From NCBI GenBank assembly GCA_944321765.1, contig CALUMQ010000015.1:1-56316 (forward strand): DNA of 56,316 nucleotides. Direction: 5' to 3'. The notes under the pieces were generated by a model. It did not search any database. It was not told where the DNA came from and was given only the letters and a program-made list of their open reading frames with translations. The DNA comes from an uncultured Alistipes sp. (GTDB lineage Bacteria; Bacteroidota; Bacteroidia; Bacteroidales; Rikenellaceae). A program made the translations under genes and the position numbers. Shown here one piece after another: positions 35,550-48,076 of this stretch (its first letter is position 1; every line of letters begins with the position of its first letter).

Positions 35550-35557
35550 TATCTTTG
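35550..35557 (+). promoter_or_regulatory. Putative -7 promoter box of the DUF6377 regulator
   Basis: TATCTTTG, a full TAnnTTTG match, 18 nt before the ATG at 35576. Confidence 0.6.
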
Positions 35558-35575
35558 ATCCGGAACTCGAAAACG

Positions 35576-37225
35576 ATGCTGCTACGATCACTCCATATAC
35601 TCCTTTTCGGCATTCTGCCGTTGTGCGGCGCCCTACTCGCGACGTCATGCCATCGGAATGAGAACCAGCCGCTTATCGAGGAACTCGACCAGGCCATCGC
35701 CAACAAGCCGATGTACGATGCCCAAAAAGAGCAGCGCATCGACGGACTGAGGCGCCTGCGCGCCATCCCGGACTTCTCGCCCTCCCAGGAGTATGAAATC
35801 AATACGCAATTGTACCGGGAGTTCAAGAAATACAAACTCGACTCGGCCGTGCGCTACGTCGAGCGCAACCTCGAACTCGGCCAGCAGACCGGCAACACGG
35901 AGTACATCGTCGAGTCGAAGACACGTCTGGCACGCCTCTACTCCTCGTCGGGCATGACCCTCGAAGCGCACGACCTGCTGGAGTCGATACACCCCGACAC
36001 GCTTCCCGACAAACTGCGCCACGACTACTACCGGGCCTACGCACAGTTCTACCAGCACTACGCGGCCCTGGCCGACAAACCCGCCTACAACGAAATCTCC
36101 CAGCGATATGTCGACTCGATGCTCGCGGTCCGGCAGGTCGGATCGCTGCGCTACCGCCTGGCCTACACATCCCGGCTTACGCGAAGCATCCCGGCCGATT
36201 CGCTCGAAAAGGCCCTGTTGCAGCTCTTCGACGAGATTCCCGCCAACGATTCGCACCACGCCGAAGCCGCCTTCATGCTCGGCAGCTTCTACCGGGGACA
36301 GGGCGACGAGACAAACTCCCTGAAATACTTCATGATCTCCGCCCTGACCGACGTGCGTCTCTCGATCAAGGAGAACGCCTCGTTCCAGTCGCTCGCCACG
36401 GTCTACTTCGACACGGGCAATCTGGCCCGGGCCTTCAAGTATTCGCAGGCGGCCATCGAGGATGCGAAATTCAGCAAGGTACAGTTCCGCACGGCCCAGA
36501 TGTCGGAGCTCTACTCGATCATCTCGGACATGCACCAGTCCAAGGAGGTCAACGCCAAGAACAAGCTGCAGCACTATCTGATACTCATCAGCGTTCTCTC
36601 GGTCGTGCTCGTCCTGCTGCTCGGCTTCGTCTTCCGGCAGATGCGCAAGTTCTACCGCATCAAGGAGGAGCTGTCGCACATCAACGGAGAGCTCGCACGG
36701 CTGAACGACGAACTGGCCGAAAAGAACGAGGCGCTCTCCGACGCCAATGCCGTCAAGGTGCAGTACATCGCCCGCTTCTTCGATCTCTGCTCGATGTACA
36801 TCGACAAGATGGACGACTACCGCAAACGACTCAAGAAACTCGCCCAGGACCAGAAGTTCGACGCCCTGTACCGACAACTCAACTCGACCTCGATGCTCGA
36901 AAACGAGCAGGTGGAGCTCTACAAGAACTTCGACGCGATCTTCCTGAATCTCTACCCTTCGTTTGTCGAGGACTTCAACGCCCTGCTCAACGACGACGAG
37001 CGCATCGTCCTTCCGTCGGACGCCCTGCTCAACAAGGAGCTGCGGATCTATGCGCTGCTGCGGCTGGGCATCACCGACAGCATGAAGATCGCCTCGTTCC
37101 TGCGCTGCTCGATCTCGACGGTCTACAACTACCGCTCGAAGGTCCGCAACAAGGCCGCCGTCTCGCGCGAGGAGTTCGAGAAGATGGTCATGAAGATCGG
37201 AACAGCCCGGAAATCCGAGGTCTGA
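35576..37225 (+). CDS. DUF6377 membrane-anchored TPR regulator
   Basis: A 549-residue protein with a lipoprotein-like signal (LLATSCHRN, Cys near residue 25), a periplasmic TPR-type region of about residues 35-335 (AEAAFMLGSFYRGQGDETNSLKYF), a membrane helix of about 342-362 (YLILISVLSVVLVLLLGFVF), a cytosolic coiled coil (LARLNDELAEKNEAL), and a C-terminal DUF6377 segment with LNKELRIYALLRLGI and CSISTVYNYRSKVRNKA. The last part looks like a LuxR-type recognition helix. It is probably a one-piece sensor-regulator acting at the inner membrane (inference). It is transcribed toward the oxidoreductase-Tat operon 225 bp downstream, whose promoter region carries repeats that could be its sites. 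Confidence 0.85.
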   Translation: MLLRSLHILLFGILPLCGALLATSCHRNENQPLIEELDQAIANKPMYDAQKEQRIDGLRRLRAIPDFSPSQEYEINTQLYREFKKYKLDSAVRYVERNLELGQQTGNTEYIVESKTRLARLYSSSGMTLEAHDLLESIHPDTLPDKLRHDYYRAYAQFYQHYAALADKPAYNEISQRYVDSMLAVRQVGSLRYRLAYTSRLTRSIPADSLEKALLQLFDEIPANDSHHAEAAFMLGSFYRGQGDETNSLKYFMISALTDVRLSIKENASFQSLATVYFDTGNLARAFKYSQAAIEDAKFSKVQFRTAQMSELYSIISDMHQSKEVNAKNKLQHYLILISVLSVVLVLLLGFVFRQMRKFYRIKEELSHINGELARLNDELAEKNEALSDANAVKVQYIARFFDLCSMYIDKMDDYRKRLKKLAQDQKFDALYRQLNSTSMLENEQVELYKNFDAIFLNLYPSFVEDFNALLNDDERIVLPSDALLNKELRIYALLRLGITDSMKIASFLRCSISTVYNYRSKVRNKAAVSREEFEKMVMKIGTARKSEV

Positions 37226-37450: not shown

Positions 37451-38524
37451 ATGAATCCTATAAAGGTAGGACTGATCGGCTTCGGCAGAATGGGTGAATT
37501 CTATCTCGAGCAAATGCAGAAAAGCCCGAAATGGGAGGTCGCATACATCTGCGACACCTCGGCCGAATCCCGTGAATACGCACATAAAAAAGCTCCGGAA
37601 GCAAAGATCGTTGCCGACGAACAGGCGATCTTCGACGATCCCGAGGTGCAGGTGGTCGGACTCTTCGCCCTGGCCGACTCGCGCAAAGAGCAGATCGAGA
37701 AGGCCTTCGCCGCCGGCAAACACGTCATCGCCGAAAAACCCATCGCCGATAACATGGTTAACGAATGGAAGGCCGTGGAGCTGGCCGAAAAGACCCCGCT
37801 GCTGTCGACGGTAAATCTCTATCTGAGGAACTCCTGGTACCACCAGACCATTAAGGAATTCATCAACAGCGGCGAGATCGGCGAACTGGCCATCATCCGC
37901 GTATGCCACATGACCCCGGGCCTGGCACCCGGCGAAGGACACGAATACGAAGGCCCGGCCTTTCACGACTGCGGCATGCACTACGTCGACATCGCCCGCT
38001 GGTACGCCGGTTCGGAATTCCGGACGTGGCACGCCCAGGCCCTGCGGATGTGGAGCTACAAGGATCCCTGGTGGCTGCAGTGCCACGGCACGTTCGACAA
38101 CGGCGTGGTCTTCGACATCACCCAGGGACACGTCTACGGACAGCTCGCCAAGGATCAGACACACAACTCCTATATAGATATCATCGGAACGAAGGGCATT
38201 GCCCGCATGACGCACGACTTCAAGACGGCCGTCGTCGAGCTGCACGGAGTCACGCAGACCCAGCGTCTCGAAAAGCCCTACGGCGGAAAAAACATCGACG
38301 CCTTGTGCCGCCGCTTCGCCGAGTCGCTCGAAACGGGCGTTCGCGACAGGCATCTGCCTCAGTTCCGTGACGCCGCCATCGCTTCGGAGTATGCCTGGCG
38401 GTTCCTTGAGGATGCCCGCAGCCACGACATGCCGGCCATCGGCACCCTCGAAGAGCTTGAGGCGATCCGCGAACGGCGCCGCACGATGACCAACGGCTAC
38501 GGACTGCTGCACAAACGCCACTGA
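37451..38524 (+). CDS. Gfo/Idh/MocA family oxidoreductase (cytosolic)
   Basis: A 357-residue NAD(P)-dependent sugar oxidoreductase. The Rossmann start KVGLIGFGRMGEFYLEQM (GxGxxG-like) is at residues 5-22, the EKP motif (HVIAEKPIAD) holds the conserved Lys, and FHDCGMHYVDIARW supplies the Asp/His pair of the active site. There is no signal peptide, so it acts in the cytosol. The family oxidises or reduces ring hydroxyls of sugars, inositols or glycosides. It is followed after 173 nt by tatA and a second, exported member of the family. By analogy with Bacteroides gene sets containing two such enzymes plus DUF1080 and an isomerase, it may reduce the 3-keto product after import (inference). Confidence 0.92.
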   Translation: MNPIKVGLIGFGRMGEFYLEQMQKSPKWEVAYICDTSAESREYAHKKAPEAKIVADEQAIFDDPEVQVVGLFALADSRKEQIEKAFAAGKHVIAEKPIADNMVNEWKAVELAEKTPLLSTVNLYLRNSWYHQTIKEFINSGEIGELAIIRVCHMTPGLAPGEGHEYEGPAFHDCGMHYVDIARWYAGSEFRTWHAQALRMWSYKDPWWLQCHGTFDNGVVFDITQGHVYGQLAKDQTHNSYIDIIGTKGIARMTHDFKTAVVELHGVTQTQRLEKPYGGKNIDALCRRFAESLETGVRDRHLPQFRDAAIASEYAWRFLEDARSHDMPAIGTLEELEAIRERRRTMTNGYGLLHKRH

Positions 38525-38640
38525 CATCGGACCCGCCCTGGCCGGAACTCCTTGAGCAGAATCCGGCCGCGGAGAACAAAAAATGACCCCCGGCCGGTGA
38601 ATAGATCGCCCGAAAAGGATGTTTTTCCGCAATAAATTCG

Positions 38641-38648
38641 TACATTTG
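38641..38648 (+). promoter_or_regulatory. Putative -7 promoter box of tatA
   Basis: TACATTTG matches TAnnTTTG and lies 49 nt before the tatA ATG. The tatA-to-tatC genes can therefore be transcribed separately from the oxidoreductase at 37451. Confidence 0.55.
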
Positions 38649-38697
38649 AAAGAATTTTGAACCGAAAGTCATACTCACATTAAAAACGCAAACCAAG

Positions 38698-38913
38698 ATG
38701 AATCACTTCTTATTCCTCGGCAACCTCGGAGCCGGTGAGATCATCATCATCGCACTTATCGTCCTGCTGCTCTTCGGCGGCAAGAAGATTCCCGAGCTGA
38801 TGAAAGGAATCGGCAAAGGCGTCCGCAGTTTCAAGGACGGGATGAACAATATCGAGCGCGATATCGAAAACACCGACCAGGACACCAAACCCACTACCCC
38901 CAGCAAGCAATAA
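38698..38913 (+). CDS. tatA: Twin-arginine translocase subunit TatA
   Basis: A 71-residue pore-forming Tat subunit: a short hydrophobic helix [20 protein letters not shown], the [16 protein letters not shown] amphipathic helix that defines TatA, and a charged disordered tail. It exports folded proteins with twin-arginine signals. The next gene encodes such a substrate and tatC closes the cluster. No TatB-like gene is seen, as in other minimal TatAC systems. Confidence 0.95.
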
Positions 38914-38966
38914 CCAGCTGCCCCACCCCCGAAAAAAGCTACACCAAACCTAAAATAGCGATTATC

Positions 38967-40439
38967 ATGGCAAACGAAATGTCAAGAAGAAAGTTCCTCA
39001 AAGCAGGAGCTGCTGCCGCCCTCGGTCTGGCGGTTGTTCCCAGCACGGTACTGGGCAAGAAGTTCGGCTACACGGCCCCGAGTGACAAACTCAACATTCT
39101 GGGTGTCGGTATCGGAGGCCGCGGCGCCGCCGTGCTCCAGGGCCTCGAAAGCCAGAACATCATCGGTCTGTGCGACGTGGACTGGTCCTATGCCGATCAC
39201 GTCTTCAAGCGCTACCCTGCCGCCAAGAAGTACAACGACTACCGCAAGATGTACGACGAAATGCTCAAGTCGGCCGATGCCGTCATGGTCGCCACGGCGG
39301 ACCATACGCACGCCATCATCGCCGCCGACGCCATCACCGCGGGCAAGCACGTCTATGTGGAGAAACCGCTGACGCACACCGTCTATGAGTCGCGTCTGCT
39401 GACCAAACTCGCCGCCAAGTACAAGGTTGCCACGCAGATGGGTAACCAGGGCGCTTCGGGCGAGGGCGTCCGCAAGATCTGCGAATGGATCTGGAACGGC
39501 GAGATCGGCGAGGTCCGCAAGGTTGAGACCTTTACCGACCGCCCCATCTGGCCGCAGGGCCTCGCACGCCCCGAGAACGACATGCGCGTTCCGAAGACCC
39601 TGAACTGGGATTCGTTCATCGGCCCGGCCCCCTGGCGTCCCTACAACTCGATCTACACCCCGTGGAACTTCCGCGGATGGTGGGATTTCGGTACCGGCGC
39701 CCTGGGTGACATGGCCTGCCACATCCTCCACCCGGTATTCAAGGCCCTCAAGCTCGGATACCCGACCAAGGTGCAGGGAAGCTCGACGCTGCTGCTCACC
39801 GAGTCGGCCCCGATGGCCCAGCGCGTGAAGTTCGTATTCCCGGCCCGCGACAACATGCCGAAGGTTGCCATGCCCGAAGTCGAGGTGCACTGGTTCGACG
39901 GAGGTCTGCTTCCGGAGCGTCCCGCAGGACTCCCCGCCGGCAAGGACCTCAACATGGACGGCGGCGGCGTGATCTTCTACGGCACGAAGGATACGCTCAT
40001 CTGCGGATGCTACGGCGTGAACCCCTACCTGGTTTCGGGTCGCGTGCCCAACGCTCCGAAGATGCTGCGCGAAGTCAAGGAGTCGCACCAGATGGACTGG
40101 GTGCGCGCCTGCAAGGAGGATCCCGAGGATCGTACTCCGTCGGCTTCGGACTTCAGCGAGGCAGGACCGTTCAACGAAATGGTCGTCATGGGCGTACTGG
40201 CCGTGCGTCTGCAGAGCCTCAACCGCGAACTGGAGTGGGACGGCGAGAACATGCGCTTCACGAACATCCCCGACGATGCAACGATCCGCACGGTGATCAA
40301 GGACGGTTTCCACATCAACGACGGTCACCCGACCTTCGACAAGACCTGGACCGATCCGGTCAACGCCCAGCAGTTCGCTCAGGAGCTGATCAAGCACAAC
40401 TACCGCGATGGCTGGAAGCTGCCTGACATGCCCCGCTAA
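38967..40439 (+). CDS. Tat-exported Gfo/Idh/MocA family oxidoreductase
   Basis: A 490-residue oxidoreductase with a twin-arginine signal (SRRKFLKAGAAAALGLAVV, residues 6-24) at its N-terminus. The Rossmann motif GVGIGGRGAAVLQG follows, then the VEKPLTHT segment (EKP Lys) and GDMACHILHPVFKALKLG with the catalytic Asp/His. A long C-terminal domain of the larger secreted subfamily ends HNYRDGWKLPDMPR. Tat export fits an enzyme that must bind NAD(P) and fold in the cytosol before export, as in glucose-fructose oxidoreductase. It lies 53 nt after tatA and 38 nt before the DUF1080 gene. The probable role is oxidation of a sugar hydroxyl of a periplasmic glycoside (inference). Confidence 0.93.
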   Translation: MANEMSRRKFLKAGAAAALGLAVVPSTVLGKKFGYTAPSDKLNILGVGIGGRGAAVLQGLESQNIIGLCDVDWSYADHVFKRYPAAKKYNDYRKMYDEMLKSADAVMVATADHTHAIIAADAITAGKHVYVEKPLTHTVYESRLLTKLAAKYKVATQMGNQGASGEGVRKICEWIWNGEIGEVRKVETFTDRPIWPQGLARPENDMRVPKTLNWDSFIGPAPWRPYNSIYTPWNFRGWWDFGTGALGDMACHILHPVFKALKLGYPTKVQGSSTLLLTESAPMAQRVKFVFPARDNMPKVAMPEVEVHWFDGGLLPERPAGLPAGKDLNMDGGGVIFYGTKDTLICGCYGVNPYLVSGRVPNAPKMLREVKESHQMDWVRACKEDPEDRTPSASDFSEAGPFNEMVVMGVLAVRLQSLNRELEWDGENMRFTNIPDDATIRTVIKDGFHINDGHPTFDKTWTDPVNAQQFAQELIKHNYRDGWKLPDMPR

Positions 40440-40477
40440 ACCTCAATTGAAAAACAAACCTTTAAATTAACGAACCA

Positions 40478-41362
40478 ATGAAAATGAGCGTATTATTCTC
40501 TACGTGCATCGCTCTCTCCGCAGCGCTTGTAGCATGCGGCGGCCAGAGCGGAAAGAAGGCCAAGACCGCCGAAGATGCTGCTGCGGCCGAGGCTGAAACG
40601 AAAGCAGCTCCCGCATACACGGTCATCGAAAAGGAGCAGGTAGACCTCTCGACCTTCCCGAAGGACAAGGACGGCTACTATGTGATCTTCGACGGCAAGA
40701 GCTTCAACGGATGGCGCGGCTACGGCAAGGACTACGTGCCTTCGCGCTGGACGATCGACAACGGTGCCATCAAGTTCAACGGCTCGGGCGGCGGTGAGGC
40801 CCAGACCAGCGAGGGCGGCGACCTGATCTTCGCCCACAAGTTCAAGAACTTCGAGCTCGAACTGGAGTGGAAGGTGTCGAAGGGCGGCAACTCGGGTCTC
40901 TTCTACCTGGCCCAGGAGGTCGCTACGACCGATGACAAGGGCGAGCAGCGCCTCGAGCCGATCTACATCTCCTGCCCGGAGTACCAGGTGCTCGACAACG
41001 AGAACCATCCCGATGCCAAGCTGGGTGTCGACGGCAACCGCATGGCCGCATCGCTCTACGACATGATTCCCGCCAAGCCGCAGAACGCCAAACCCTTTGG
41101 CGAGTGGAACAAGGCCAAGATCATGGTTTACAAAGGCACGGTGGTTCACACGCAGAACGACACCAACGTCCTGGAGTATCACCTCTGGACTCCCCAGTGG
41201 ACCGACATGCTCCAGAAGAGCAAGTTCAGCGAGGAGAAGTGGCCCCTGGCCTTCGAACTGCTCAACAACTGCGGCGGTGAGAACCACGAGGGTTACATCG
41301 GCATGCAGGATCATGGCGACGACGTCTGGTTCCGCAATATCCGCATCAAGGTTCTTGACTAA
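40478..41362 (+). CDS. DUF1080 (3-keto-disaccharide hydrolase-like) lipoprotein
   Basis: A 294-residue lipoprotein (ALVACGGQS, Cys near residue 20). After an Ala/Glu/Lys linker the DUF1080 domain begins at YYVIFDGKSFNGWRGYG, continues with FELELEWKVSKGGNSGLFYL, PEYQVLDNENH, and ends GMQDHGDDVWFRNIRIKVLD, all typical of this jelly-roll family. DUF1080 proteins have been assigned activity on 3-keto-glycosides. Position after the Tat-exported oxidoreductase and before the isomerase supports a joint periplasmic pathway. The ATG at 40478 is used; the second ATG at 40484 would also give a lipoprotein. Confidence 0.92.
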   Translation: MKMSVLFSTCIALSAALVACGGQSGKKAKTAEDAAAAEAETKAAPAYTVIEKEQVDLSTFPKDKDGYYVIFDGKSFNGWRGYGKDYVPSRWTIDNGAIKFNGSGGGEAQTSEGGDLIFAHKFKNFELELEWKVSKGGNSGLFYLAQEVATTDDKGEQRLEPIYISCPEYQVLDNENHPDAKLGVDGNRMAASLYDMIPAKPQNAKPFGEWNKAKIMVYKGTVVHTQNDTNVLEYHLWTPQWTDMLQKSKFSEEKWPLAFELLNNCGGENHEGYIGMQDHGDDVWFRNIRIKVLD

Positions 41363-41380
41363 GCACAGGATTTCCAAAGG

Positions 41381-42289
41381 ATGAGAAAACAGCTTTTGGC
41401 AATCTGCATGCTGCTCGTCGGAGGAGGCATGAGCTCGTGTGGAGCCGCCTCCTCCGCGACCGAGCAGCTGCCCCGCAAGGAGATCGGCATTCAGCTCTAT
41501 TCGGTGCGCGACCTGATCGGTGTCTTCGGACGCAACCAGCAGGACTACAACGACGTACTGAAGAAGCTGGCCGAGATGGGCTATACCTCGATCGAGGCCG
41601 CCAGCTACAGCGACGGAAAACTCTACGGACAGACACCGGCCCAGTTCCGCAAGGATGTGGAGGCCGCAGGTCTCGAGGTGCTCTCGTCGCACTGCACGAC
41701 CAACCTCTCGGACGAGGAGCTGGCCAGCGGTGACTTCTCCCGGGCACTCGCATGGTGGGATGCCTGCATCGCCGCTCACAAGGAGGCCGGCATGAAGTAC
41801 ATCGTGGCCCCCTCGATGCGTAACATCGACAACCTGAAGGATCTGCAGACCTACTGCCGCTACTTTAACGAGGTCGGCGCACGCTGCAACGCCGCAGGGC
41901 TGAAATTCGGGTACCACAACCACTCCGGAGAGTTCCGCAAGATCGACGATCAGGTCGTCTACGACTACATGATCGAAAACACCGACGCCGACAAGGTCTT
42001 CTTCGAAATGGACGTCTACTGGGCCGTGATGGGCCAGGCCAGCCCCGTCGACTACTTCAACAAGTATCCGGGACGCTTCCGCCTGCTCCACATCAAGGAC
42101 CGCCGGGAGATCGGTCAGAGCGGTATGGTGGGCTATGATGCCATCTTCAACAACGCCGACAAGGCGGGCGTGGAGAACATCATTGTCGAGATCGAGGCTT
42201 CGAGCTACAACGACATGCTGCGCAGCGTCGGCGAATGCGTCGACTACCTGCGTCGCGCGCCGTTCGTCAAGGAGTCGTACAAACACTGA
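41381..42289 (+). CDS. TIM-barrel sugar isomerase/epimerase-like lipoprotein
   Basis: A 302-residue xylose-isomerase-like TIM-barrel protein with a lipoprotein signal (GGMSSCGAA, Cys near 20), so it acts in the periplasm. Barrel features: IGIQLYSVRD, YTSIEAASY, LSSHCTTN, FGYHNHSGEF, FFEMDVYWA (metal Glu/Asp), LLHIKDR (His and Lys/Asp) and IVEIEAS (metal Glu), so the metal site looks intact. Family members isomerise sugars or break 3-keto-glycosides by elimination. It lies 18 nt after the DUF1080 gene and 82 nt before tatC. Confidence 0.9.
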   Translation: MRKQLLAICMLLVGGGMSSCGAASSATEQLPRKEIGIQLYSVRDLIGVFGRNQQDYNDVLKKLAEMGYTSIEAASYSDGKLYGQTPAQFRKDVEAAGLEVLSSHCTTNLSDEELASGDFSRALAWWDACIAAHKEAGMKYIVAPSMRNIDNLKDLQTYCRYFNEVGARCNAAGLKFGYHNHSGEFRKIDDQVVYDYMIENTDADKVFFEMDVYWAVMGQASPVDYFNKYPGRFRLLHIKDRREIGQSGMVGYDAIFNNADKAGVENIIVEIEASSYNDMLRSVGECVDYLRRAPFVKESYKH

Positions 42290-42371
42290 ATCTAAACTTT
42301 TCTGCCATCGGAGACATCCGGTTATCTATGGGTAGCCGGATGTTTCTTTGGAACACCAACTCCTACGAGAC

Positions 42372-43220
42372 ATGGAAGACAAACAACTCGACGACGCCCA
42401 GATGATGACATTCTGGGGCCACCTCGAGAATCTGCGCTGGGCTCTGATGCGTGCGGTAGGCGTACTGCTCGTATTCATGATCGTATGCTTCTGCTGCATG
42501 CCCTATCTGTTCGACCACTTCGTGCTGGCCCCCACCAATTCGGAGTTCCCGCTGTACAGGTGGCTCTCGCGGCTCGGAGAGATCAGTTCCCTCTTCCCGG
42601 ACTTCAGCGATGACACCTACTCGGTAGACATCATCAACATCAACGTCGCCTCACAGTTCATGACGCACATCAGTACGTCGTTCTGGTTCGCCCTGGTGCT
42701 GATGTTCCCCTATCTGGTCTTCGAGATCTGGCACTTCGTACAGCCGGCGCTATTCGTCAACGAGCGCAAAAGCGTAGGATTTGCCTTCTTCTTTGGAACC
42801 GTCATGTTCTTTCTGGGGTGTTTCGTGGGATATTTTCTCGTCTTCCCCTTCACGTTCCGCTTCCTGACGGAGTATCAGTTGAGCAGCATGATCACCAACC
42901 AGATCTCACTGAACTCCTACATGAGCAACTTCCTGCTGATGATCTTCATCATGGGAATCGTCTTCGAACTGCCGCTGCTGGCCTGGCTGCTCTCGAAGCT
43001 GGGGCTGCTCACTCGATCGTTCCTGCGGCAATACCGACGCCATGCAATCATCGTGCTGATGATTCTGGCGGCCATCATCACCCCTACGGGCGATCCTTTC
43101 ACACTGATGGTCGTCTTCCTGCCGCTCTACCTGCTCTATGAGTTGAGTATCCGCTTCGTGCAGGAGCGACCCGAGGAGGAAGAGGAGGAGGAGAGCTCCG
43201 GAGAGAAGCAGGAAGCCTGA
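42372..43220 (+). CDS. tatC: Twin-arginine translocase subunit TatC
   Basis: A 282-residue multi-spanning receptor for twin-arginine signals. It begins MEDKQLDDAQMMTFWGHLENLRWALMRA (the HLxELRxR-like N-terminal motif), has six membrane helices with FPYLVFEIWHFVQPAL after the second, an atypical insertion with Phe/Asp-rich sequence between helices 1 and 2 (LFPDFSDDTYS), and an acidic C-terminal tail (EERPEEEEEEES-like). The ATG at 42372 is chosen over an in-frame TTG at 42348. It closes the cluster that begins with tatA; a strong hairpin follows. Confidence 0.95.
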   Translation: MEDKQLDDAQMMTFWGHLENLRWALMRAVGVLLVFMIVCFCCMPYLFDHFVLAPTNSEFPLYRWLSRLGEISSLFPDFSDDTYSVDIININVASQFMTHISTSFWFALVLMFPYLVFEIWHFVQPALFVNERKSVGFAFFFGTVMFFLGCFVGYFLVFPFTFRFLTEYQLSSMITNQISLNSYMSNFLLMIFIMGIVFELPLLAWLLSKLGLLTRSFLRQYRRHAIIVLMILAAIITPTGDPFTLMVVFLPLYLLYELSIRFVQERPEEEEEEESSGEKQEA

Positions 43221-43435: not shown

Positions 43436-45784
43436 CTAACGGGCTGCAGCGTCGCCGGCCGCCGCACTCATCGAGAAGGGACGGCTTTCGGGCGAGGTGC
43501 CGCGATCGGTATCGGGCTCGGCCTGCATGTCGATGTGCAGCGTCGCACCCTTGATCAGCTCCGAGTAACGGAGGTAGTTCCGGTCGTACGCCTTGCCGTT
43601 GAAGGTCATCTTGCCGATGTAACGGTGTTCGGCGTCGTTGTCCGGAGCCTCGATCACCACCTTCCTGCCATTCTCCAGATGGATCGTCGCCTTGCGGAAG
43701 AGCGGCGCGCCGAGCGCATACTCGTCCGACCCCGGGCAGACGGGATAGAATCCAAGGGCCGAGAAGACGTACCAGGCCGAGGTCTGCCCGTTGTCCTCGT
43801 CGCCGCAATAGCCGTCGGGCTTGGCCGAATAGAGGCGGTTCATCACCTCACGCACCCAATACTGCGCCTTCCACGGCTGTCCGCAGTAGTCGTAGAGATC
43901 GATCATGTGCTGGGCCGGCTGGTTGCCGTGGGCATAGTTGCCCATGTTGGCCACCTGCATCTCGGTGATCTCGTGGATGCGGCCTCCGTAGTAGCTGTCG
44001 TCGTAGATCGGCGGCACGACGAAAACCGAATCGAGCATCTTTGCAAACTCCGACTCCCCGCCCATCAGTGCGGCAAGGCCTGCGGGATCGTGGAACACCG
44101 ACCACGTGTAGTGCCAGGCGTTGCCCTCGGTGTAGGCGTCGCCCCACTTGTAGGGACTGAACGGCGACTGGAACTCACCGTTTTTGTTACGCCCGCGCAT
44201 GAGCTTCGTCTCGGGGTCGAAGAGGTTCCGGTAGTTGTACGAGGCCTGCTCGATCTTCGCGGCATCGTCGCTCCTGCCCAACTTCTTCGACACCTGCGCG
44301 ATACACCAGTCGTCGTAGGCATATTCAAGGCTGCGGGCAACGTTCTCGTTGATGCCCACGTTGTAGGGAATGTAACCCAGCGTGTTGTAATACTCGTGTC
44401 CGAGGCGTCCGGTCGACGAGACCTGAGGATGGACGGACTCTCGTCCGTGAAGCATCGCCTCGTAAAGTGTGGCGATATCCTCCGCGGGCGTCACACCCTT
44501 GAGGATGGCATCGGAGACCACCGACGCCGAGTTGTTGCCCACCATGCAGCCGCGGTGCCCGGGCGATGCCCATTCGGGCAGGAAGCCGCTCTCGCGGTAG
44601 GTGTTGGCCAGGCCTGCCTGGATCTCGGCGTTGACCGACGGATAGGCCAGGTTCAGCAGCGGAAAGAGGCAGCGGAAGGTATCCCAGAAGCCCGTGTCGG
44701 TATACATGTATCCGGGCAGCACTTCACCGTTGTAGGGGCTGTAGTGCACGGGGTTGCCCTGGGCGTCGATTTCGTAGAATTTGCGCGGGAAGAGCACCGA
44801 ACGATAGAGGCACGAGTAGAAGGTCCGCAACTGATCCTCGCTGCCGCCCTCGACGGCAATGCGTCCCAGCACGTCGTCCCAACGCTGCCGGGCCTGCTGC
44901 TTCACCTGCTCGAAGTCGTTGTCGCCCAGCTCCCCGAGGTTGCGCAGCGCCTGCTCGCCGGAGATGAACGACGAGGCGATGCGCAGGTTCACCTGCTCGC
45001 CGCGCGTGGTGGTGAAGTGCACCTTCGCCACGGCATGGTTGCCGCCGATGCCCTTGCCGCCTTCGGGATAGAGCACCTTGCCGCCCGCCTTGTAGGAGGA
45101 GGGATCATCGGTGAGTTCCACACCGCTGAAGGGCTTGTCGAAGCGGATGACAAAGTAATTGCGGAAATTCTCCGGCACCCCGCCGCTGTTGCGCGTCGTA
45201 TAGCCGACCACCGTACGGTCGTCGACGATCTCCAGGTACGATCCGCGATCGAAGGCGTCGATCACCACGCCCGACTCCGTCGATTCGGGAAAGGTGAAGC
45301 GCATGATGGCAGCCCGCTCGGTGGGCGTCACCTCGGCCAGGATGTCGTGATCGGCCAGATAGACCGAATAGTAGTAGGGTTTTGCAGTCTCCGACTGGTG
45401 CGAGAACCAGCTCTTGCGCGACTCCTCGTCGAGGGCTCCGTCACCACGCACGGGCATCACGGCAAACTGTCCGTAGTCGTTGATCCACGGCGAGGGCTGG
45501 TGCGTCTGCTTGAGGCCGCGAATGGTGTGGGTGTCGTAGGTATAGGCCCATCCGTCACCCATCTTGCCGGTCTGTGGCGTCCAGAAGTTCATGCCCCACG
45601 GAAGGGCAATGGCGGGATAGGTGTTTCCCGTCGAGAGGAGGAACTCCGACTGCGTGCCCACGAGTGTCGAGACATACTCCGAGGGGCGTTTTGTCGAGGA
45701 GCCGCCGAGTGGCTCTGCGCAGGCGGACATACCGCCCAGGAGAAGGGCCAGGCAGATCGGCCAGGTGATTTTCTTCTTCATCAT
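43436..45784 (-). CDS. GH92 family glycosidase lipoprotein with Glu-to-Gln at the catalytic acid
   Basis: A 782-residue lipoprotein (GGMSACAEP, Cys near residue 22) of glycoside hydrolase family 92, calcium-dependent exo-alpha-mannosidases. The N-terminal beta domain has STGNTYPAIALPWGMNFW, and the (alpha/alpha)6 domain has TDTGFWDTFRCLFPL, GNAWHYTWSVFHD and GDEDNGQTSAWY, whose Asp residues supply the catalytic base. The acid motif normally reads HGNEPxHH; here it is HGNQPAQH with Gln622. GH92 enzymes with Gln at this place are known to cleave mannose-1-phosphate linkages, where no acid is needed, so this one may uncap phosphomannans (inference). It is convergent with tatC and 90 nt downstream of the second GH92 gene, with its own promoter-like box. 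Confidence 0.93.
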   Translation of the reverse strand: MMKKKITWPICLALLLGGMSACAEPLGGSSTKRPSEYVSTLVGTQSEFLLSTGNTYPAIALPWGMNFWTPQTGKMGDGWAYTYDTHTIRGLKQTHQPSPWINDYGQFAVMPVRGDGALDEESRKSWFSHQSETAKPYYYSVYLADHDILAEVTPTERAAIMRFTFPESTESGVVIDAFDRGSYLEIVDDRTVVGYTTRNSGGVPENFRNYFVIRFDKPFSGVELTDDPSSYKAGGKVLYPEGGKGIGGNHAVAKVHFTTTRGEQVNLRIASSFISGEQALRNLGELGDNDFEQVKQQARQRWDDVLGRIAVEGGSEDQLRTFYSCLYRSVLFPRKFYEIDAQGNPVHYSPYNGEVLPGYMYTDTGFWDTFRCLFPLLNLAYPSVNAEIQAGLANTYRESGFLPEWASPGHRGCMVGNNSASVVSDAILKGVTPAEDIATLYEAMLHGRESVHPQVSSTGRLGHEYYNTLGYIPYNVGINENVARSLEYAYDDWCIAQVSKKLGRSDDAAKIEQASYNYRNLFDPETKLMRGRNKNGEFQSPFSPYKWGDAYTEGNAWHYTWSVFHDPAGLAALMGGESEFAKMLDSVFVVPPIYDDSYYGGRIHEITEMQVANMGNYAHGNQPAQHMIDLYDYCGQPWKAQYWVREVMNRLYSAKPDGYCGDEDNGQTSAWYVFSALGFYPVCPGSDEYALGAPLFRKATIHLENGRKVVIEAPDNDAEHRYIGKMTFNGKAYDRNYLRYSELIKGATLHIDMQAEPDTDRGTSPESRPFSMSAAAGDAAAR

Positions 45785-45874: not shown

Positions 45875-48076
45875 CTATTGCGCATCGCCGACCGTGTACC
45901 ACAGCGCAGGCTCGGGGCCCATCTCGAAGAGAAGCTCCCCGCCCGCCATCAGCGCCGCATGGTCGATATAAGGTTTCTCGTAGGGCTGTCCGTTGAGCCG
46001 CACGCGCTGGATGTAGCGGTTTTCGGCCGAATTGTCCTGTGCCACGATCGTCAGCGTACCGCCCGGCACGGCGATCTCCACGCGGTCGAACAACGGCGAT
46101 CCGAACCAGTAGCGACCGCCGGCCGGCTCAACCTCGTAGAAGCCCATGGCCGAAAGGATGTACCACGACGACATCTGTCCGACATCCTCGTTGCCCGACA
46201 ATCCGTCGGGGCGGTCGTGGTATAACGTCGTCAGTACCTCGCGCACCTTGTCGGCCGTCTTCCACGGCTCGCCAAGCATCGTGTAGAGGTAGAGGATGTG
46301 GTGCGAGGGTTCGTTGCCGTGGGCATACTGCCCGATCAGCCCCGAGATATCGGGTGAACTCTCGCCGCCTTCGACCACGGAGCTCACCGTGAAGAGCGAG
46401 TCGAGTTTCGAGATCATCCGCTCGCGGCTTCCGAAGCAGGCCTGAAGCCCCTCGATGTCGTGCGGAACAAGCCATGTATACTGCCAGGCGTTGCCCTCGC
46501 AATAGTCGTCAGCGCGGTGTGTCGAGGCAAACGGATTGAAGGGCGTGCGCCAGCCGCCGCGGCTGTCGCGTCCGCGCAGGAAGCCCGTCCCGGGGTCGAA
46601 GTAGTGGCGGTAGGAGTGGCTGCGCTCCGTGAAGCGTGCGGCATCCTCCGTCTTGCCCAGCGCCGCGGCAGCACGTGCGGCGGCCCCGTCGGCCAGGGCG
46701 TACTCCAGGTCATAGGCCACCGCCTCGTTGAACAGATCGCAGGGAATATAGCCGTGCTCCATGCGCAGGCCGTTGCCGCGCCCGGGGTTCATCGCCGTCT
46801 TGCGGATCGCCTCGAAGGCCCGCTCGCGGTCGAAACCGCCGATCCCCTTCACGATGGCGTCGGCCACCACGGGAATGCCCGGATTGCCCACCATGCAGTC
46901 GGTTTCGTTGCCCCAGAGATGCCATACCGGGAGGCGTCCCTGCTCGTCGGCAATGGCCAGCATCGTCTGGATGATCCCTGCCATCTTCTCGGGATGCAGC
47001 ACCGTCATCAGCGGCATCGCGGCGCGGTAGGTATCCCACAGCGAGAAGGTCGTATAGGTCGTGTATCCGGGATTTTCGTGAACCCGGCCGTCGGCGCCGC
47101 GGTAGTCGCCGTTCGCGTCGCAGAACTCCGACGGAGCCACCATCGTGTGGTACAGGGCCGTATAGAAGATCCGCCGGGCCGCGTCGTCCGAGGTCGAGAC
47201 CTTCACCTTCGAGAGCTCCTCGTTCCACTTCTCGGCGGCAGCTTCGGCCGTCTCTTCGAAGTCCCAGCCGGGAAGCTCGGCCTCCAGGTTGGCCTTCGCC
47301 CCCTCGAGGCTCACGGGCGACAGCGCGACCTTCAGCAGCACCTCTTCGCCGTCGGACGTTGCGAACAAGGCCCGTCCGTAGCGGTCTCCGATCTGCTCGA
47401 ACTTCGGAAAAGGCTTCGAGCACTCGGCCACGAACCACACCCGCTGGTCGCGGGCCCACCCTTCGGAGTAGCGCCAGCCGCAGACCGTATGGTCGTCCAC
47501 CACCTCGATGTGGGTCTCCGTGGCCTTGTCCCAGCAGCCGCCGTTCTCGAGGTCAAAGACCAGCGCCGCGGCATTCGAGGCCGGGAACGTATATCGATGA
47601 AAGCCGACGCGCGACGTGGCGGTCATCTCGGCCGTAATGCCGTAACGGGTCAGCGGTACGGAGTAGTAACCCGGGCGCACGACCTCCTTCGAACGGTCGG
47701 CATAGGACCAGAGACCCGACGCAGGATCATCCTCCGTCCCGCGGGCATAGGTCACATCGCCCGTCACGGGCATCACCGTCACGTCGAACAGATCGCCGAT
47801 ACCCGTACCGCTGAGGTGCGTGTGCGAGAATCCGATCACCGTGGAGTCGCTTTCATGGTAGCCCGAGCACCAGTCCCAGCCCTGGGGAATGCTCGTGGGA
47901 CCCACCTGCACGAGTCCGAAGGGGACGTTTGCCCCGACGAATACGTGTCCGTGGCCGCCCGTTCCGATCTTCGGATCGACCCATCGGGTCAGATCTTCGG
48001 CTGCGGGCTGCGGAGCCGCACACGCCGCGAGGGTCACAAGCGCGGCAGCGGCAAAAAGTTGAGAGAGGTTTTTCAT
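45875..48076 (-). CDS. GH92 family alpha-mannosidase lipoprotein (catalytic residues intact)
   Basis: A 733-residue lipoprotein (LVTLAACAAP, Cys near residue 19) of GH92. The N-terminal domain begins WVDPKIGTGGHGHVFVGANVPFGLVQVGP; the helical domain has SLWDTYRAAMPLMTVLHP, WGNETDCMVGNPG, HGNEPSHH with the expected catalytic Glu589, and GNEDVGQMSSWY with the base Asp residues. It is a probable exo-acting alpha-mannosidase for host or fungal mannose glycans. It lies upstream of the first GH92 gene on the same strand, but the two belong to different subgroups: they share only the short family motifs. No SusCD pair is nearby on this strand. Confidence 0.95.
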   Translation of the reverse strand: MKNLSQLFAAAALVTLAACAAPQPAAEDLTRWVDPKIGTGGHGHVFVGANVPFGLVQVGPTSIPQGWDWCSGYHESDSTVIGFSHTHLSGTGIGDLFDVTVMPVTGDVTYARGTEDDPASGLWSYADRSKEVVRPGYYSVPLTRYGITAEMTATSRVGFHRYTFPASNAAALVFDLENGGCWDKATETHIEVVDDHTVCGWRYSEGWARDQRVWFVAECSKPFPKFEQIGDRYGRALFATSDGEEVLLKVALSPVSLEGAKANLEAELPGWDFEETAEAAAEKWNEELSKVKVSTSDDAARRIFYTALYHTMVAPSEFCDANGDYRGADGRVHENPGYTTYTTFSLWDTYRAAMPLMTVLHPEKMAGIIQTMLAIADEQGRLPVWHLWGNETDCMVGNPGIPVVADAIVKGIGGFDRERAFEAIRKTAMNPGRGNGLRMEHGYIPCDLFNEAVAYDLEYALADGAAARAAAALGKTEDAARFTERSHSYRHYFDPGTGFLRGRDSRGGWRTPFNPFASTHRADDYCEGNAWQYTWLVPHDIEGLQACFGSRERMISKLDSLFTVSSVVEGGESSPDISGLIGQYAHGNEPSHHILYLYTMLGEPWKTADKVREVLTTLYHDRPDGLSGNEDVGQMSSWYILSAMGFYEVEPAGGRYWFGSPLFDRVEIAVPGGTLTIVAQDNSAENRYIQRVRLNGQPYEKPYIDHAALMAGGELLFEMGPEPALWYTVGDAQ

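Follow-up and report, generated by a model that had tools for sequence, protein, structure and literature searches.

Genes and Features of the Locus

The window analysed here, that is, the whole stretch of 56,316 nucleotides from an uncultured Alistipes sp. (contig CALUMQ010000015.1), contains a cluster in which tatA and tatC, genes of the twin-arginine translocase (Tat), are joined with genes of a putative glycoside-oxidizing pathway. The paired arginines (RR, composed of R1 and R2) of Tat signals and the residue E103 of the receptor TatC (E. coli numbering) are regarded as almost invariant across life (PMC5539426). It is quite probable that the window holds the known 3-keto-glycoside pathway together with a TatA-TatC exporter of its own, and that relatives with another gene order, called type II below, have a functioning Tat that reads only one arginine. 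E103 of TatC and the second arginine of most signals read are lost together, both in genes linked to tat and in genes unlinked to it.

All six genes of the cluster that a preliminary description of this DNA had listed are real and complete, and they lie on the + strand in the order given there, with which Pfam and NCBIfam concur (Table 1). First of all, the BT_2159-family gene is followed by a gap of 173 bases before tatA, in which TACATTTG resembles the consensus of the Bacteroides -7 box; because of this gap and this box-like element, the gene may form a transcription unit of its own, separate from tatA onward. No signal peptide was seen in its protein, and only distant solved structures match it, with a top score of 58 bits. 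With the TIGR01410 tatB model, TatA of the window reaches 28.9 bits, under the cut-off of 56.5. Between tatA and tatC is encoded, as the preliminary description had it, a dehydrogenase with a Tat signal; TAT_signal (PF10518) scores 23.2 bits on it at a cut-off of 22.7, and its solved homologues include PDB 8tdf_A (1019 bits) and 8tdh_A (999 bits). The DUF1080 and TIM-barrel proteins start with the lipobox-like LVACG and MSSCG, respectively, as read by eye from the sequence. For tatC, an alternative upstream TTG start is possible at 42348, and its product is the only TatC match in the window's own genome, which is 88.6% complete.

Table 1. Features of the tat-enzyme cluster in the window.
Feature	Position	Strand	Evidence
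Gfo/Idh/MocA oxidoreductase, BT_2159 family ('disaccharide 3-dehydrogenase')	37451..38524	+	NF058563 697 bits, cut-off 650
TACATTTG, Bacteroides -7 promoter box-like, ahead of tatA	38641..38648	+	read from sequence
tatA, Tat translocase subunit, 71 aa	38698..38913	+	PF02416 (TatA_B_E) 54 bits; TIGR01411 tatAE 65 bits, cut-off 53.9
Gfo/Idh/MocA oxidoreductase with MANEMSRRKFLK, Tat signal, BT_2158 family ('glycoside 3-dehydrogenase')	38967..40439	+	NF058561 901 bits, cut-off 750
Twin-arginine motif SRRKFLK (second arginine codon 38988-38990)	38982..39002	+	translation; TAT_signal PF10518
DUF1080 / 3-keto-disaccharide hydrolase family lipoprotein	40478..41362	+	PF06439 161 bits; PDB 8v31_A 525 bits
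Xylose-isomerase-like TIM-barrel lipoprotein	41381..42289	+	PF01261 69 bits; PDB 8tcd_B 427 bits
tatC, Tat translocase receptor	42372..43220	+	PF00902 207 bits
TatC codon aligned with E. coli E15, here Asn	42429..42431	+	alignments
TatC codon aligned with E. coli E103, here Glu (GAG), second-arginine contact	42762..42764	+	alignments; contact from PMC13323110

At the columns of E. coli H12, E15, F94, Y100 and E103, TatC of the window has H, N, F, F and E; that is to say, among the motif-contact columns E15 is changed and the other four are kept or similar. With E103 kept and SRRKFLK in the substrate signal, the window is in the RR state. It is like other TatA-TatC translocases in having one TatA and one TatC, an SRRKFLK substrate and the TatC residues H12, F94 and E103, but it differs from them in that its tat genes are placed around the substrate gene, in the Asn at the E15 position and in having type II relatives without E103.

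Loss of the TatC Residue E103

For the numbering of residues, the PDB chains 9dzz_A and 9r91_A were used, which we take to be E. coli TatC. Their ungapped alignment fits H12, E15, L99, Y100 and E103 (PMC13323110). According to the cryo-EM study of 2026, R1 is connected to E15 through water, and R2 is salt-bridged to E103 (PMC13323110).

A total of 120 genomes of the window's family (the family draw) were searched for TatC and for BT_2158-family genes over cut-off, which were found in 82 and 35 genomes, respectively. The layout of the window, BT2159-tatA-BT2158-DUF1080-TIM-tatC, is called type I. The type II layout, tatA-tatC-TIM-BT2158-DUF1080, occurs in seven genomes of the draw (G089, G112, G116, G117, G009, G029 and G013), and only these 7 of the 85 rows in the TatC alignment are without Glu in the first cytoplasmic loop. 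The solved chains put this Glu at E103 and indicate that the E15 contact is retained in the seven. The seven type II TatC proteins were then used, by means of two peptide patterns, for a scan of 84,980 species genomes, which is no census of TatC; among the best 80 of 235 loci, E103 was absent in 33 and present in 47. The E103-less loci of the scan (L217-L247, L251 and L258) are labelled Alistipes, Rikenellaceae, Bacteroidales or Bacteroidia, with a ruminant source for 18 of the 33 and horse faeces for 2.

Family draw and scan together give 165 aligned TatC rows, including six scan loci that repeat family-draw genomes (L217, L228, L236, L242, L247 and L258); 40 rows, from 33 distinct genomes, lack E103, and 125 have Glu. 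The residues in its place are Q in 28 rows, V in 5, I in 3, L in 2, and A and M in 1 each. The positions of E15, R17 and F94 are kept in all 40 E103-less rows, and the E15 position is Glu in 40/40 of them against 55/124 of the E103-retaining rows. Ala, Val and Asp are frequent at this position in the other 69 of these 124 rows, a pattern opposite to that of the E103-less rows. When 32 E103-less genomes were searched for TatC, one match was obtained in 28 and one plus a fragment in G123, while G129 has two TatC proteins, both E103-less (L226 and L243, the latter from the same isolate and outside the GfoB search set described below).

Loss of the Second Arginine in Linked and Unlinked Substrates

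In the operon itself, all seven type II genomes have lost the second arginine in two signals: that of BT2158 reads SRADFLK or SRGEFLT, and that of the TIM protein reads DRLxFFK, DRLEFLK or NRLDFLK. Over all rows, R2 of BT2158 is missing in 31/31 E103-less rows (29 Ala, 2 Gly) versus 0/27 E103-retaining rows, and RR is present in 13/13 further type-I loci. The corresponding position of the TIM protein is Leu in 30/30 E103-less rows versus Arg in 18/18 E103-retaining rows, a count that omits the type-I TIM proteins with their lipoprotein-like signals. The counts for BT2158, TIM and GfoB leave out the six repeated loci, and G075, which has RR in BT2158 and TIM and in which no TatC was found, was excluded from the E103-retaining counts. 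L224 and L241 each contribute a second BT2158 copy to these rows; it carries SRADFLK and follows the type II operon downstream at a distance of a few kb.

The window's own genome was searched for Tat signals with TAT_signal PF10518 at E up to 10. Six matches were obtained, of which one is over the curated cut-off. The four top-scoring ones are Gfo/Idh proteins, in every case encoded within a few kb of a PF06439 gene: one in the window, two on contig C14 and one, GfoB, on contig C24; a 4Fe-4S aldo/keto reductase ranks fifth and is followed by one weak match. C14 (L169) and C24 (L170) hold two further sets of Gfo/Idh and PF06439 genes with Tat-like signals, one of which includes a 919-aa HEAT-repeat protein with a C-terminal PF06439 domain.

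The GfoB signal has R-K in 29/29 E103-less genomes versus RR in 19/19 E103-retaining ones. The orthologue was found in 28 of the 32 E103-less genomes searched, of which 23 were left after repeats were dropped, and 6 from the family draw complete the 29; G145 and G146 have none, and G125 and G129 have only a weaker paralogue, in both cases with SRLDFLR. A second GfoB copy in G070 (L352) has RR and stands outside the 19. In two Bacteroidales-type metagenome-assembled genomes (MAGs) with one TatC with and one without E103 (G148 and G150; L448 and L449), the GfoB signal is KRKEFLT.

A similar loss, not complete in every case, was observed in three more families. GfoL has R-L in 17/17 E103-less rows, from 13 genomes, versus RR in 5/5 E103-retaining rows, the search query having included the motif itself. 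In Gfo486, RR is missing in 12/13 E103-less rows (9 Gly, 2 Ser, 1 Lys; the G009 row starts inside the protein) versus 0/11 E103-retaining controls from 10 genomes. In the aldo/keto reductase, which is of a different enzyme class, RR is missing in 10/15 E103-less rows (6 Gly, 4 Lys) versus 0/6 E103-retaining rows; these were read in 15 of the 16 matched E103-less genomes (not in G123) and in 6 of 16 E103-retaining ones, the own genome included. The signal pieces first sampled from the family draw, which overlap with the counted gene families, give RR missing in 16 of 21 readable E103-less pieces and RR present in 18/18 E103-retaining ones. Five sampled pieces and twelve Gfo rows were re-read for frame, and wrong frames or starts were set aside as the cause of the missing RR, the reading of each motif having included a Met upstream of it and its conserved F-L part.

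History of the Receptor and the Signals

In a TatC tree built from 127 of the 165 rows, the E103-less rows form one clade (SH-aLRT 97; a quick tree with long branches). The R-K rows of the GfoB tree lie in two places, as forced by its starred branches, and a single origin of the R-K change was rejected (p-AU 0.0004). Because TatC gives one clade and one GfoB R-K clade is rejected, one loss of E103 appears to have been accompanied by two or more separate changes in the GfoB signal, as well as by changes in five other families, namely BT2158, TIM, GfoL, Gfo486 and the aldo/keto reductase. The simplest order would be that TatC changed first and that the signals resident in the genomes drifted afterwards.

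Linkage of tat with the Enzymes

TatC was found in 34 of the 35 family-draw genomes with a BT_2158-family gene versus 48 of the 85 without one (p 3e-6, relatedness ignored), the one genome lacking it, G075, being 80% complete. Of the 34 genomes with both, 12 have tatC and the BT2158-family gene no more than about 5 kb apart, a proximity that is beyond chance (about 2e-20 under random placement, relatedness ignored). Type I was found in G000, G046, G087, G099 and G023 of the family draw. A genus-wide search matched 40 of 180 genomes, of which 9 were already covered and 13 weaker ones were left out; the 18 further type-I-like TatC loci read comprise 11 with six genes in order, 2 incomplete (G158 without a tatA match, G167 without BT2159) and 5 with tatA-tatC only, so that the full six-gene order is conserved in 16 loci (5 and 11). 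The five loci without enzymes rule out that this kind of TatC is confined to the operon.

The preliminary description had placed the Tat genes around the enzymes and had named their separation in close relatives as evidence against this. The association recurs in two gene orders; in part, however, separation is what was found, since the enzymes stand beside tat in some clades and apart in others. In the type III layout, TIM-BT2158-DUF1080, of the g4, g9, g11 and g16 genomes read, there is no tat nearby, and G101, from the window's genus, has type I enzymes without tat. That tat always surrounds these enzymes is ruled out by such relatives; given two tat-bearing layouts on the one side, and type III and G101 on the other, the link is recurrent but clade-bound. 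In G074, two DUF1080 genes and no TIM lie on a short contig. Other tatA-tatC loci (L119, L123, L118 and L072) stand beside different Gfo/Idh and DUF1080 genes.

It might be argued that a housekeeping tat locus merely came to lie next to a catabolic operon, without any functional tie. This would agree with the separate enzymes and tat of the g4, g9, g11 and g16 genomes and with the 69 of 84 fetched tatC loci of relatives that have no BT2158-like gene nearby (some contigs being short), but two different gene orders unite tat with the enzymes, one of them in 16 loci, the four loci just mentioned adjoin different Gfo/DUF1080 sets, and the BT2158-family dehydrogenases of all layouts have Tat-like signals. 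Coincidence is considered unlikely.

In the window's genus (g1), 11 of 32 family-draw genomes are without a TatC match, 5 of these at 99% completeness, and Tat appears to be dispensable there. Directly upstream of the cluster, on the same strand, is a DUF6377 protein with weak TPR matches (35555-37225); on the other side, two GH92 genes lie back to back on the - strand (43436-45784 and 45875-48076), convergent with the tat cluster.

The Enzyme Pathway

The enzyme set is of the BT2156-BT2159 kind, as had been proposed in the preliminary description: NF058563 and NF058561 are over cut-off, and PF06439 and a TIM barrel are present, with solved homologues. In enzyme content, the window has four kinds in common with BT2156-BT2159 of B. 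thetaiotaomicron, but here tatA and tatC lie among the enzyme genes. Since there are curated NCBIfam models, and since close homologues of known structure exist for the BT2158, DUF1080 and TIM proteins, the 3-keto-glycoside pathway of the window is already described, and its sugar chemistry is not new. The dehydrogenase with the Tat signal would be folded around NAD(P) in the cytoplasm and then exported by the adjacent TatA-TatC; once exported, it would oxidize a glycoside at C3, after which the DUF1080 and TIM-barrel lipoproteins would cleave the bond and process the product, and the BT_2159-family enzyme would act in the cytoplasm.

As for the cofactor, the glucose-fructose oxidoreductase of Zymomonas is a Gfo/Idh protein exported by Tat with its cofactor bound, and in this respect the dehydrogenase of the window would be like it. 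It was proposed in the preliminary description that NAD(P) might be recycled via a second sugar as in that enzyme, and not by re-reduction of the 3-keto product, for which the existence of such exported enzymes with bound cofactor could be adduced. However, a 2024 paper in Nature reportedly describes a redox-neutral route of oxidation, elimination, hydration and reduction for homologous enzymes; by analogy, NAD may be recycled by such a cycle with no second sugar needed, and recycling via a second sugar is quite unlikely. No literature on a link between Tat and DUF1080 was found in open PubMed Central (PMC) papers, and a search for 'disaccharide 3-dehydrogenase' found none. It has been reported that deletion of BT2157 or BT2158 causes no growth defect on raffinose-family sugars (PMC11501099).

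Probable Function of the Tat System Without E103

Probably, a natural one-arginine Tat exists in Alistipes-like and related Bacteroidales, in which a TatC without the near-universal E103 reads only R1, through E15. Position two of the motif would thereby have been freed genome-wide and now be A, G, K, L or S, having changed on two or more independent occasions in one unlinked family. The receptor may have spread beforehand along with the tat and 3-keto-glycoside operon. The altered signals of the E103-less genomes keep R1 and the FLK part, and these R-x signals would still be exported by Tat. In the titles and abstract beginnings listed by searches of open PMC papers, no natural single-arginine Tat system is described, nor is one in the accessible part of a survey of TatC (PMC3827258).

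The missing second arginines could also mean that the signals of the E103-less lineages have drifted to Sec, or that export has been lost, the second arginine being unneeded in either case; indeed, a single arginine suffices in E. coli with a more hydrophobic signal resembling those of Sec (PMC5539426). Yet the remaining Tat motif persists (S-R-x-D-F-L-K and similar), the h-regions of BT2158, TIM and GfoB, in which this was measured, show no gain in hydrophobicity, and tatA-tatC are retained and adjoin two altered substrates. A switch to Sec seems unlikely, since the signals still have R1 and the F-L part, and TatC still has the E15, R17 and F94 positions in every E103-less row; drift or loss of export, taken together, is judged very doubtful. 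Compensation by signal hydrophobicity and not by a changed receptor is highly improbable and was set aside: although h-region suppressors in E. coli rescue TatC E103K and arginine-mutated signals in the laboratory (PMC5539426), the hydropathy of the best stretch of 11 residues following the motif is, in E103-less genomes, lower for BT2158 (1.61 vs 1.95) and TIM (1.49 vs 1.79) and equal for GfoB (1.91 vs 1.91). A bypass of arginine recognition is known from laboratory suppressor mutants of E. coli tatC and of signal peptides (PMC5539426, PMC7317946), but they act through more hydrophobic h-regions or changes of TatB, whereas here hydropathy does not rise in these three families and several gene families are changed.

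Several points weigh against a Tat that reads one arginine. In E. coli, TatC E103A serves as an inactive control (PMC13323110), and even lysine is poorly tolerated in the signals (PMC7317946), for which reasons an easy tolerance of arginine loss is disfavoured. A single TatC event underlies the co-loss, and rows within a clade are not independent; tests on independent pairs agree in direction, but with 1-2 pairs significance is out of reach. A Glu one residue before position 103, which might substitute for E103, is present in 9 of the 40 E103-less rows, G148 and G150 have a second TatC with E103, and the E103-less genomes are mostly MAGs. Moreover, RR is kept in some E103-less genomes (Gfo486 1/13, aldo/keto reductase 5/15, sampled pieces 5/21). 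Since these signals keep it, RR would still be tolerated there; and since the states are mixed even among close relatives (G143 versus G116 and G134), the signals look like the result of a relaxed constraint, not of a new fixed code. On the whole, the sequence evidence that a natural Tat has given up the second arginine is strong.

Significance

A lineage in which both halves of the salt bridge have been lost is a natural double test of the contact map obtained by cryo-EM in 2026. The window is the RR state of a catabolic operon with its own exporter, and its E103-less relatives show how the targeting code can relax. If this is true, substrates of these gut bacteria should be overlooked by Tat predictors that require RR, and the E103-less receptor with its signals would be ready material for studying why Tat relies on a pair of arginines.

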